Source: a virus. Taken from it: 25,675 nt of DNA. The notes under the pieces were generated by a model. It was not told where the DNA came from. It ran no database searches and saw only the letters and a program-made list of their open reading frames with translations. Shown in pieces: positions 5,735 to 17,984 of this stretch. How positions within the stretch are numbered: the first letter of the stretch is position 1; the number at the start of each line of letters is the position of its first letter. The position numbers and the translations under genes were made by a program. The stretch spans positions 1 to 25,675 of the IMG/VR virus record IMGVR_UViG_3300046718_000648. The stretch is one strand, 5' to 3'.

Positions 5735-6475
5735 TTACGCGGCGAAGCCGCCGTGCCTGCGCTTCCAGCCGACGAGGCCGAGGCCGATCAGGCCTGCGCC
5801 GAGGAGGCCGAGGGTGCCGGGCTCGGGCACCGCGGTCGCGACGATCGCCTGCGAGCGGCCGGTCAGTTGCGAGGCGACCCCGCCGACCGCGCCCGCGATC
5901 GTCCCGGTGGTCTCCAGGGTCATCGAGTAGAGATCCGGGTCGATGAAGCCCGAGACGTGGTTGAAGTTGAACGAGTCGGTCAGCCCGGCCGCGGTGAAGA
6001 GGCCCGAATCGGCTTGCAGGATGCCGGGGTGGTCGGTCGGGGTGTTGGCTCCCTGCGTGTTGGCGTTGTCGGCATAGTAGGTCAGGTCGATGGTCGAGCC
6101 GGCGGCGTTCTGCCAGGTGCCTGAGCCTGATTCGGACAGGCTGGTCACGGGTCCGACGAAGCTGGTGCCGCCGACGGCGATGGTGATGGCGACCGCCGCG
6201 GCCCCGCTATTGGTGATCTGGAATGAGGTCGTGTCCAAGGTGTTGCTGGCCCCCGTCGTCTGGGTCTGGGCCGATCCCAGGAAGGTGACCGCGCCGAATG
6301 TTTGCGTCCCCGTGGTGATGGTGCCGACGAGCGGGTTGGTGTCGCACGCGGCGTTGTCGACGCACGAGAATGTGGTGCCGCCGATATTGGCGCTGAATTG
6401 CAGGACGGCGTGGGCCGGGGTGGCGGCGAGGCCGGCCCCGGCGAGGGCAAGCGCGGCAAGTGCCAGGTTTTTCAT
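5735..6475 (-). CDS. PEP-CTERM sorting-domain surface protein
   Basis: A 246-residue exported protein. It opens with a signal peptide (MKNLALAALALAGAGLAATPAHA, cleavage likely after AHA) and ends with a textbook PEP-CTERM tripartite signal: VPEPGTLG, a hydrophobic stretch, then WKRRHGG. In known systems such tails are processed by exosortase, which anchors or releases proteins at the envelope. The body is Thr/Ser/Gly/Ala-rich, beta-like, with two Cys near residues 39-45 (FSCVDNAACDT). The ATG at 6475 is chosen over an upstream one because it follows GAGAGAGAGG and begins the signal peptide. The gene stands alone between two terminators; no exosortase is in the window, so it would rely on the host's. 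Confidence 0.85.
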   Translation of the reverse strand: MKNLALAALALAGAGLAATPAHAVLQFSANIGGTTFSCVDNAACDTNPLVGTITTGTQTFGAVTFLGSAQTQTTGASNTLDTTSFQITNSGAAAVAITIAVGGTSFVGPVTSLSESGSGTWQNAAGSTIDLTYYADNANTQGANTPTDHPGILQADSGLFTAAGLTDSFNFNHVSGFIDPDLYSMTLETTGTIAGAVGGVASQLTGRSQAIVATAVPEPGTLGLLGAGLIGLGLVGWKRRHGGFAA

Positions 6476-6494
6476 AGGCGTTCCTCTCTCTCTC

Positions 6495-6550
6495 AAAAAA
6501 GGCCGCCGCCGAGGCTGGTAGGGGGGCCTGTCAGTCCCCCGGCAGCGGCC
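6495..6550 (-). terminator. Intrinsic terminator for the leftward repeat-protein operon
   Basis: On the minus strand, 6540-6550 pairs with 6501-6511 (10 of 11 pairs), with an inner G-run/C-run pairing, and is followed by six T (6495-6500). It lies just after the stop of the Pro/Gly repeat gene. Arm and flank (GGCAGCGGCC, then AGTTCA) resemble the terminator at 5650. Confidence 0.75.
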
Positions 6551-9239: not shown

Positions 9240-9365
9240 ATGCGTTGCCTCGCCCTGGCTCTTCTCCTGTGGCTGTCCGCCTGCGCCGCGCGCCCGGCCG
9301 ACCCGGACCACCGCTTCATCGCCGCCTCCCCTCGAGGGACCATCTGGGCCAACCAAGGAGCCTGA
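9240..9365 (+). CDS. Small lipoprotein (41 aa)
   Basis: MRCLALALLLWLSAC then AARPADPDHRFIAASPRGTIWANQGA: a short hydrophobic signal with a good lipobox (LSAC), Cys at 15. The mature part would be about 27 residues on an outer-membrane-facing lipid anchor. AAAGGA lies 6 nt before the ATG. Tiny lipoproteins in phages can be outer-membrane spanins (Rz1), but a partner i-spanin is not evident, so this is only one option; lipoprotein-mediated exclusion is another. Confidence 0.6.
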   Translation: MRCLALALLLWLSACAARPADPDHRFIAASPRGTIWANQGA

Positions 9366-9366
9366 C

Positions 9367-9597
9367 ATGCCCGACCCGCTGATCGCCCCGATCGACGAGA
9401 TCATCGCGGAGTGCGAGCGCATCCGCGCCGCCGACACCGCCAGCATCGCCACCATCGCGGCGGTCGAGAACGTGCTCGCCTACGCCCGCGCGGCCCGCGC
9501 CGCCCTGGTCGAGGCCGACGCCGCCACGGCCCGCGTGCGCCGCGAGGTTATCGAGGCTTTCAACGCCCGGCATTTGTGGATCGTCCCCCCGAAATGA
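9367..9597 (+). CDS. Small helical hypothetical protein (76 aa)
   Basis: The ATG at 9367 follows AAGGAG, which overlaps the end of the lipoprotein gene; a longer open frame upstream is an overlap artefact. The product (MPDPLIAPIDEIIAECERIRAADT...) is a long Ala/Glu/Arg helix with coiled-coil character (VENVLAYARAARAALVEADAATARVRREVIEAFNARH). No family is recognised. It is coupled to the next gene by ATGA. Confidence 0.55.
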   Translation: MPDPLIAPIDEIIAECERIRAADTASIATIAAVENVLAYARAARAALVEADAATARVRREVIEAFNARHLWIVPPK

Positions 9598-9755
9598 TCC
9601 CGCCGCGCCTCAGCCCGCGGGTCGCCGGCCTCGCCGCCGCCGCCTGCCTCGCGCTGGCCGTCCTCGCGGCAACCGAGGACCGCCCCCTCCTCGCCGCGAT
9701 CAACCTCGTCAGCGCCGCCCTCTACGCCGCCAGCGTCTGGCTCGCCCGCCGCTGA
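9594..9755 (+). CDS. Small two-helix membrane protein (53 aa)
   Basis: MIPPRLSPRVAGLAAAACLALAVLAATEDRPLLAAINLVSAALYAASVWLARR: two hydrophobic segments separated by a short polar turn (TEDRP), ending in Arg-Arg. The ATG overlaps the upstream TGA (ATGA). It may be a small membrane protein of the same lysis or envelope module as the lipoprotein; no family is recognised. Confidence 0.55.
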   Translation: MIPPRLSPRVAGLAAAACLALAVLAATEDRPLLAAINLVSAALYAASVWLARR

Positions 9756-9849
9756 CCTGTGCATAACCCGTTCCCGCTTTGTCTTGGCGCAGAACGGATT
9801 TTGGTGGACCGCAGCAACCATTCTTGCCGCTGCACCATCGGACCCGACC

Positions 9850-9878
9850 TCCGGTCCCGATCACCGGATCTTTTTTTT
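9850..9878 (+). terminator. Intrinsic terminator after the lipoprotein operon
   Basis: TCCGGT (9850-9855) pairs with ACCGGA (9863-9868), followed two bases later by a run of T (9871-9878). It closes the rightward unit 9240-9755 and isolates the gene-free region beyond. Confidence 0.75.
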
Positions 9879-9880
9879 AG

Positions 9881-10510
9881 AGATACCAGACGCGGCGCTC
9901 GAGTTGCGTCGTGTCCGGGCTGCGCTCCCTCCCGCTCTAAGGTCTCCGCTCGCTCCGCCCGGACCTGAGAGAGAGGGGGTGTTGCACGGTTGCAGGACTG
10001 CTGCTGCTGATTAACCCCCTCCCCCCTCTTTCTGGACCCTCATCATTTTAAGCGGGGGGCGGACAGAGTTATCCCGACGCGGGGACAACTCTGTTGAGCC
10101 ATCACTTTGAAGGGGTCCCTTCAGCGGCTCAGTGCAGCCTCGCGCGGCGGTGATCGCCTGCCGGTCGGTGCCTTCCACCGGCATATTACGCGCCTAGTTC
10201 ATGTCACGGATTTGAGACGCACGCCGGGCTACAGGGCGCGCGCCATCGAGTTTTGTTCATGCGAGGGGCACGACTGCCAGCTCGGTCGGGTTCTGCCACA
10301 CCCTTCGGTGCCACCTACCGTTTCACACAAATGCGAACGGATTACGGGCCGAGGCCGCTATGGGTACGGTAGAAAACCATTGACTTTCGGGGTTTCCGCT
10401 CGGTAGCTTGGCTTGTTCCTTTTTTGGGGACCAAACGCAGCCAAACGTCCCACGAACGCATTGGCCCATCTACGCAACGGCCCTTTGACAGAGGGCCGTT
10501 GTGCGTTTAG
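9881..10510 (+). ncRNA. Candidate large structured noncoding RNA (or origin), unassigned
   Basis: No convincing protein is encoded here, but the sequence is dense in exact inverted repeats: GTCCGGGC/GCCCGGAC (9913-9920 with 9957-9964), GAGGGGGT/ACCCCCTC (9973-9980 with 10014-10021), ACAGAGTT/AACTCTGT (10063-10070 with 10087-10094), TGAGCC/GGCTCA (10095-10100 with 10126-10131) enclosing TGAAGGG/CCCTTCA (10108-10114 with 10117-10123), TGCCGGT/ACCGGCA (10159-10165 with 10177-10183), GGCGCGCGCC (10235-10244), CTACCGT/ACGGTAG (10315-10321 with 10366-10372), and CAACGGCCCT/AGGGCCGTTG (10475-10484 with 10492-10501). Such chains of helices are typical of ornate phage RNAs such as GOLLD or ROOL, but I see no specific match, and an origin is possible. 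Strand is a guess. Confidence 0.45.
10475..10501 (+). terminator. Strong hairpin at the 3' end of the structured region
   Basis: A 10-bp perfect stem CAACGGCCCT/AGGGCCGTTG with a 7-nt loop, followed by TGCGTTTAGG. The T-run is weak, so it may be an RNA 3' element rather than a full intrinsic terminator. Confidence 0.5.
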
Positions 10511-10594
10511 GCGACCACAAATTCACCATATTGTCCAGACCCTTAGATTCCGGCCCTCGCCCGGCGTGGCCCGCTCCCCGTCCCGAACGCCGTC

Positions 10595-10616
10595 AAATTA
10601 TTGACGTCAATAATTT
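10595..10616. promoter_or_regulatory. 22-bp perfect palindrome overlapping a promoter
   Basis: The half AAATTATTGAC is followed directly by its reverse complement GTCAATAATTT. TTGACG (10601-10606) inside it can act as a -35 box, with GTGTAA at 10624-10629 a weak -10 at 17-nt spacing, leading to the zinc-ribbon gene at 10639. The placement fits an operator at which a repressor would block the rightward operon. Confidence 0.6.
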
Positions 10617-10638
10617 CGTCTGCGTGTAAGGTGGCGGA

Positions 10639-10830
10639 ATGAAGGTCAGACATAAGAGGAGATGCCCTTCGTGCGGAAAGAAGAAGGATGGCCGCCACCC
10701 GAGCTACTGCCTCAAATGCAGCGCGGCCTACAGCCGATGGTGGCGCAAGCGGCACCCGCCGCTGGGGACGCGACGTTACGAGAAAGCCCTGCGGCAGGCC
10801 CGGAAACGGCAACTGCAGCGCTCACGATAG
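10639..10830 (+). CDS. Zinc-ribbon small protein (63 aa)
   Basis: A very basic protein with a CPSC...CLKC pair (C9, C12, C24, C27) forming a zinc ribbon, then an Arg/Lys-rich tail (RWWRKRHPPLGTRRYEKALRQARKRQ). It probably binds nucleic acid. AAGGTGG lies a few bases before the ATG, and it is the first gene after the palindrome-promoter. It overlaps most of the N-terminal frame of the glycosyltransferase gene, ending exactly where the recognisable glycosyltransferase core begins, in the -1 frame. Confidence 0.6.
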   Translation: MKVRHKRRCPSCGKKKDGRHPSYCLKCSAAYSRWWRKRHPPLGTRRYEKALRQARKRQLQRSR

Positions 10831-16735: not shown

Positions 16736-17984
16736 TGGCGGCTCCGGTGAAGGGCTGGCTGATCGCGCCGGCAATGGTCGAGCCGACCGGCTTCACGCTC
16801 GAGCCCAGCACGTTGAACAATTGCTGGTAATACGCCGTGCTCGCCTGATTGATCTGCGTATCGCTGGCCATCTGCGCTTTGATGCCTTGCATGGTGTACT
16901 GGTCGCCGACCGACTGCACCGCGAGCCCGACATTGAGCTGGTTGTTGAGCAGCTTCTGGCGCAGCGCCTCGACCTGCATCGCGCCCTGCTGCGCCCCGAC
17001 CCCGCCGCGCTTGGCCGCATCCTGCGCCGCGACCGCCTGCGCGTTCTGGTACGCCTGCGCGCTCATCGGCGTCAGCGCGCCCTGCGTCGCCGCCTGGATC
17101 TGCTGCGAGCCGATGTTGGTGTAGGGCGTGCCGATGGCGCTGATCTGCTGCGCCTGCTGCGTGCCCTGCTGCTGCGCCTGCTGCGCCAACCCCTTCTGCT
17201 TGTTGGCCGAGAGCAGGCCAATCCCCGCCGGGATGCCGGCCGCGAGCAGCTTGGTCAGATTGCCCGGCGAGGCGAGGTCGCCGAGGCCCGAGAGCAGCTT
17301 GTCGCCGAAGCTCTTATCTTGGGAAGCGCCGGTGCTGGTGCCGCCTGTGCCGCCGCCGCCGAGCGCTGTATCGGGGCTGCCTAATTGCAGCGAGCTGGGT
17401 CCGGGGCTGCCCGCGACTGGTGTTCTTCCCAGTGCCGCGCTGCCGAAGGGGTCGTTCTGGACCGCCGCTGCCCGTGTCGCTGCTGCCGGTGCCGCCGCCG
17501 CCGTTGGAGGCGCGGCCGCCGTGGGTTGTTGAGCCGATCCGGCTTGTGCGCCGAAGATGTCCGGGTAGAGGCTCGGATCGAAGCCGCCGCCAGACGGCGC
17601 GCCGCCGCTAAAGGGGGCGTCCGTGCTGCCGCCAAGGTCTTGGCTCGTGACCGGCGTGACAGGCGCGGTGCCGCTGGTGTCGCTGCCGCCGCCACCAAAC
17701 AGGCCGCTCAGGAAGCCGCCACCGCCACCGCCGCTGTCGCCGCTGCCGCCACCGAAGATCGGCGACGGCTCCGAGGTGGATGCATAAGTGTCGCTGTACT
17801 CGTCCTGAAACTCGAGCAGCCCGGTCTTGGGGTTGCGCTTGCCCGAGCCGCCCAGCGCCTTCAAAAGCTCCGCTTCACGCGGGTTTATGTGCGCCAAAAT
17901 ACTGTCTTTGCCCCGTCCATGGCGCTGTAACGCCTTCGCCGCGGCGGTCGGACTGAGTTTGAGGGCCTTTTCCAGGGCTGTCAT
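16722..17984 (-). CDS. Putative internal virion protein, Gln/Ala/Gly-rich (420 aa)
   Basis: The start is placed at ATG 17984 (MTALEKALKLSPTAAAKALQRHG), which has GTGGGA about 8-9 nt upstream; an in-frame ATG at 18008 would add eight residues and put the parS-like site inside the gene. Gly-rich segments (GGGSGDSGGGGGGFLSGLFGGGG) precede an Ala/Gln helix-rich C-terminal half (KGLAQQAQQQGTQQAQQIS, QALKQKL-type repeats) and a final hydrophobic end. It may correspond to a T7 gp14-like ejection protein, by context only. Confidence 0.6.
   Translation of the reverse strand: MTALEKALKLSPTAAAKALQRHGRGKDSILAHINPREAELLKALGGSGKRNPKTGLLEFQDEYSDTYASTSEPSPIFGGGSGDSGGGGGGFLSGLFGGGGSDTSGTAPVTPVTSQDLGGSTDAPFSGGAPSGGGFDPSLYPDIFGAQAGSAQQPTAAAPPTAAAAPAAATRAAAVQNDPFGSAALGRTPVAGSPGPSSLQLGSPDTALGGGGTGGTSTGASQDKSFGDKLLSGLGDLASPGNLTKLLAAGIPAGIGLLSANKQKGLAQQAQQQGTQQAQQISAIGTPYTNIGSQQIQAATQGALTPMSAQAYQNAQAVAAQDAAKRGGVGAQQGAMQVEALRQKLLNNQLNVGLAVQSVGDQYTMQGIKAQMASDTQINQASTAYYQQLFNVLGSSVKPVGSTIAGAISQPFTGAANAPA

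Follow-up and report, generated by a model that had tools for sequence, protein, structure and literature searches.

A gene-free region beside recombination genes

What does a phage keep in more than 600 nt that hold no gene, and would such a region work as RNA, as DNA or as the leader of the next gene? We addressed this in the window, the whole stretch of virus DNA analysed here (a linear record of 25,675 bases, probably a fragment). Family scans placed genes for a YqaJ exonuclease and for an ERF annealing protein to the left of the gene-free region, both on the − strand, and one for a phrog_1574 protein to its right, on the + strand. ERF and phrog_1574 served to find three relatives: G002, 99.8% identical to the window over the overlap; G003, a patchy match with about 92% identity in the early region common to both; and G001, a sister phage that likewise matches in patches.

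A codon-usage score trained on the phage's own genes gave log-odds below zero in all six frames, on both strands, across about 9751–10650, and above zero in the main flanking genes. The gene-free stretch described in the initial annotation of this DNA was confirmed and proved longer than claimed, with no coding signal over about 9756–10638. Very small genes may escape the codon score, because the real 63-aa gene at 10639–10830, clearly coding by its substitution pattern, also scores negative. In place of the coding frame conserved in relatives that the initial annotation had considered, the longest frame within the region (10107–10406, 99 aa) has its stop in the same place in G003, but two compensating indels put its middle out of frame there and most of its substitutions between the window and G003 change the amino acid. 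That the region hides a small protein gene which escaped recognition, or what is left of a decaying gene, is highly improbable: the shared stop and the ability of small genes to slip past the codon score would favour it, but the score is negative, the frame is broken midway and mostly altered in its amino acids, and invariant blocks speak against decay. We take the region as noncoding. Upstream lie three short + strand ORFs at 9240–9755; the coding status of 9594–9755 is doubtful, since its codon positions 1 and 2 diverge more than four-fold sites do.

A conserved module in the slot of initiator genes

Comparison with G001 defined the extent of the noncoding element. The flanks are 95% identical up to 9756 and 89% identical from 10438 onwards; between 10367 and that point homology is weaker.

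9757–10366, no strand assigned: exchangeable noncoding module; homology to G001 stops at 9756 and restarts at 10367, and there is no coding signal
9784–9828, no strand assigned: divergent spacer inside the module, essentially unrelated between the window and G003

The module (about 490–610 nt, about 62% GC) is kept in two phage lineages, that of the window and G002 and that of G003. Between the window and G003, 24 of 485 compared sites differ over 9881–10366, against 49 of 353 four-fold sites of the flanking YqaJ, ERF and phrog_1574 genes (Fisher p = 1e-5, or 7e-9 without the 13-nt tract 9996–10008, which holds 10 of the 24 differences). Over 10143–10366, 10 of 223 sites differ in G003. Adjacent noncoding sequence is far more divergent: besides the unrelated spacer 9784–9828, 50-base bins across 10450–10599 drop to 66–80% identity. 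In this comparison of two sequences, low divergence could also stem from a recent exchange of the block; we favour selection because invariant runs mix with one hypervariable tract, a pattern that makes selection the better fit for 9881–10366. A conserved noncoding module is well supported, and very probably it is a functional one.

In G001 the slot between the flanks is filled by two − strand genes, encoding a 310-aa DUF1376 protein (Pfam E 1.5e-21; PHROG ‘primosomal protein’ E 7e-32) and a 187-aa protein that matched no known family. Neither gene was found in the window, G002 or G003, in which no DUF1376 match rose above the cut-off; a weak one at window 17379–17585 was rejected, being antisense in a structural gene, below the cut-off and interrupted by a stop. 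Family scans of the left-arm proteins of the window recognised no replication family, and in G003 the translated left arm and a translated 7.8-kb right-hand extension (L115) held no replication gene recognisable by eye. The absence of an initiator is provisional, because the G003 left arm and the extension were read by eye, without family scans, and an initiator may sit in unsequenced parts, since all contigs are fragments. The exchange of module for initiator genes was seen in one relative, G001. In other phages, the gaps of about 490 nt that precede phrog_1574 had been suspected of carrying a homologous element; they turned out to be small coding genes.

Because the module holds the slot of the G001 replication-initiator genes, it may, as RNA or as DNA, be a noncoding replacement for them. 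We judge the chances of a role in replication, with RNA- and DNA-level origins pooled, to be about even.

Distant blastn against phages and plasmids gave no match covering the module. Four exact DNA patterns retrieved from viral contigs the same two lineages only, plus one match in contig L116 that was judged to be chance and lies in a helicase-like frame. One exact DNA pattern had no match in genome contigs, an ERF profile search of genome contigs yielded no relative, and a module search in 47 virus records returned chance-level matches only.

Other observations on these contigs are recorded here. The window starts (1–212) with a perfect 50-bp inverted repeat (1–50/163–212) around a 112-nt AT-rich loop, and the G001 and G003 contigs also begin inside such a repeat; the G001 loop is related but in the opposite orientation, and the G003 loop is different, with G001-like arms. 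Candidate explanations are a genome end (hairpin or terminal palindrome), an invertible segment or an assembly effect. The window also encodes, at 5735–6496 on the − strand, a protein with a PEP-CTERM sorting motif, as does G003. In the L115 extension, past the G003 lineage's structural genes, a frame at 1–2731 reads by eye like a radical SAM protein, and another frame near it like part of a transketolase.

The first half of the module is structured

Folding energies divided the conserved part of the module into two halves.

9881–10142, + (strand inferred, weak preference): structured domain, candidate RNA, from folding energy against shuffles
9889–9915, +: hairpin P1, 10 bp (z −4.1 on +, −1.4 on −)
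9917–10140, +: four-way junction, from the MFE folds of window 9917–10142 and of the G003 domain and from the consensus fold
10063–10094, no strand assigned: hairpin P4, ACAGAGTT..AACTCTGT, pair probability about 0.98 on both strands
10095–10131, no strand assigned: nested hairpin P5, abutting P4
10143–10366, no strand assigned: conserved, unstructured second half of the module (z +0.8)

The domain at 9881–10142 reached z −4.4 on the + strand (0 of 400 shuffles as good) and −3.2 on the − strand (2 of 400), and its G003 copy −3.9 and −2.8, respectively. Its modelled fold is probably a hairpin plus a four-way junction, the latter with a closing stem (9917–9926/10131–10140), an inner branch (9927–9936/10051–10059), P4 and P5. 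By pair probabilities the junction competes with an alternative fold in a longer window segment and dominates in G003. It is predicted on both strands; the overall z and P1 favour +, but the − strand folds almost as well. The consensus fold contains one double change per strand, no excess over random placement for the two variants available, and the same number of changes placed at random keeps about as many pairs.

The initial annotation had read the locus as a candidate large, ornate RNA built from a chain of at least eight exact helices. The chain is weaker than that: counted without overlap, 9881–10510 has 7 perfect hairpins of 6 bp or more, against 3.6 ± 1.5 (maximum 7) in dinucleotide shuffles, and exact repeats alone are unremarkable because other 630-nt stretches of the window genome hold 7–11. 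The nested pair at 10095–10131 did recur, with an outer stem at 10095–10131 and an inner stem at 10108–10123. Of the large RNA there remains a noncoding, constrained element with a structured first half; 10143–10366 is unfolded, and no Rfam family applies. The suggested covariance-model check found no Rfam match in the window or its relatives, GOLLD and ROOL included. We think it likely that the module works as a functional RNA.

Such an RNA might serve as a scaffold or act in trans. It would then be an accessory element without connection to replication, inserted into an exchangeable slot, and by analogy GOLLD/ROOL-like in role and not in family. A folded, conserved, noncoding orphan suits this reading, and phage genomes carry large structured noncoding RNAs of the GOLLD/ROOL kind (PMC12286853). 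Only about 260 nt are structured, however, with the other half unfolded yet conserved, no tRNA lies nearby, and the alternative content of the slot is replication-related; we consider this reading somewhat unlikely.

The edges of the module and the downstream leader

The initial annotation had treated 9881–10510 as a single isolated unit between a terminator and an operator-promoter. The following features lie at and beyond the edges.

9850–9878, +: intrinsic-terminator-like hairpin and T8 run, TCCGGTcccgatcACCGGA-TCTTTTTTTT, downstream of the short + strand ORFs at 9240–9755
10367–10638, +: leader of the downstream gene, present in G001 too and carrying a promoter-like site
10475–10501, no strand assigned: 10-bp hairpin with compensatory changes among relatives
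10595–10616, no strand assigned: 22-bp perfect palindrome AAATTATTGAC/GTCAATAATTT, probable operator, conserved in relatives
10639–10830, +: 63-aa CxxC/CxxC protein, first gene downstream, no family match above the cut-off

The preceding terminator was thus found as described; in G003 its T run is kept and its stem has one G–G mismatch (9864 C->G). The unit itself did not hold together, its right part being a separate leader that is kept where the module is absent. The 10-bp terminal hairpin is real, with its compensatory changes, but lies outside the module in this leader, which is common to the module-less G001. As for the operator-promoter, the palindrome is a probable operator (its G001 copy is imperfect) and a conserved TTGACT-17-GTAGC promoter-like site stands at about 10379–10406, but a consensus promoter scan called no promoter. 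Because G001 has the promoter-like site, the hairpin and the palindrome, we assign all three to the control region of the downstream gene.

The module could in principle extend that control region, forming a long leader that regulates the early operons, for instance as an attenuator or as an antitermination RNA of the put type. It adjoins the conserved promoter-like site, the covarying hairpin and the probable operator, and the abutting hairpins P4 and P5 recall the put RNA of HK022. The leader parts do not need the module, however, as G001 keeps them without it, and the module, at 600 nt, would be long for such a site, which makes this explanation improbable.

A possible noncoding origin of replication

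An origin of replication had been offered as the alternative to a large RNA, on the strength of one site at the left edge of the module.

9758–9766, −: DnaA-box-like TTATGCACA, in a conserved block of about 30 bp at the module's left edge, absent from G001

In DnaA-dependent origins, DnaA boxes cluster next to an AT-rich region, and iteron origins have tandem direct repeats of about 17–22 bp. In the whole window only the site at 9758–9766 matches the DnaA box exactly, but 27 of 100 shuffles equal this. With one mismatch allowed, there are 11 matches against 9.0 expected in the 25.7-kb window, so boxes are not enriched, and clustering was rejected with counts at chance level. No iterons were found in the window; its repeats are widely spaced and consist of imperfect ones in two copies and a single 9-nt repeat in three. 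The origin alternative therefore gains nothing from DnaA boxes; its support is indirect and comes from the exchange with the G001 initiator-gene pair.

One version places the origin at the DNA level: host or phage proteins would bind it, its hairpins would act as single-stranded or cruciform DNA, and no RNA would be functional. The replication slot, the DnaA-box-like site at the module edge and a four-way junction that forms on either strand are consistent with it. DnaA boxes at chance, the lack of iterons, a GC content of about 62% and a P1 hairpin that folds well only as + RNA argue the other way, and we regard it as quite unlikely.

The leading single mechanism is a noncoding replication origin with a primer RNA, to which we give a probability of about 0.35. 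The module would do the initiator's job without a protein: a transcript with a folded 5′ domain would run on into the conserved, unfolded 10143–10366, stay hybridised there and prime replication by host enzymes, in the style of ColE1 RNA II or T4 R-loop origins, where a hybridised transcript primes replication. The phage ERF and YqaJ recombinases, whose genes adjoin the module, would take over after priming. We count for a primer-RNA origin the exact exchange with the DUF1376 and 187-aa pair, the constraint, the fold, the lack of coding signal, the lack of a recognised replication family in the window lineage and the recombinase genes next door. Against it we count the fragmentary contigs, the exchange in one relative only, DnaA boxes that are not enriched, the lack of iterons, about 62% GC, a cumulative GC skew with no extreme at the module, no consensus promoter, no plasmid similarity, no Rfam match and a − strand that folds almost as well.

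If the module starts replication, a noncoding element and protein initiators would be interchangeable as phage replication cassettes, and this host group would have a compact origin that needs no initiator. That a tailed phage lineage exchanged a protein initiator for a noncoding RNA-primed origin is a decidedly tentative and rather doubtful proposal; if true, interchangeable phage replication modules include protein-free ones. If the module has no replication role, what remains is an orphan noncoding element under constraint, whose fold and boundaries are defined.

Comparison with known systems

Rfam holds profiles for GOLLD, ROOL and OLE; ROOL and GOLLD form homo-oligomeric RNA cages, and many GOLLD members exceed 800 nt and often lie near tRNA islands (PMC12286853). 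The module resembles GOLLD and ROOL, whose function is also unknown, in being noncoding, phage-borne and several hundred nucleotides long. It differs in lacking a covariance-model match, in having about 260 nt of structure and in its occurrence in two lineages only; at about 490–610 nt it lies in a window with no tRNA, unlike GOLLD near its tRNA islands.

The DUF1376/primosomal modules of tailed phages occupy the same genome slot in G001 but are protein-coding, whereas the module of the window is noncoding.

ColE1-type origins use a primer transcript plus an antisense RNA from opposed promoters. In its proposed role the module would be analogous to ColE1 RNA II, as a folded transcript upstream of a priming site that works without an initiator protein. 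Unlike ColE1, it showed no antisense RNA promoter in the consensus promoter scan, and no similarity to RNA I/RNA II emerged, with no plasmid match covering the module and no Rfam match.

T4 combines R-loop origins with recombination-dependent replication by phage-encoded recombination proteins. Although the recombinases of the window phage are ERF and YqaJ, unlike those of T4, the two systems may be compared by analogy: the window phage, too, has recombination proteins of its own, and the module is a candidate noncoding origin.
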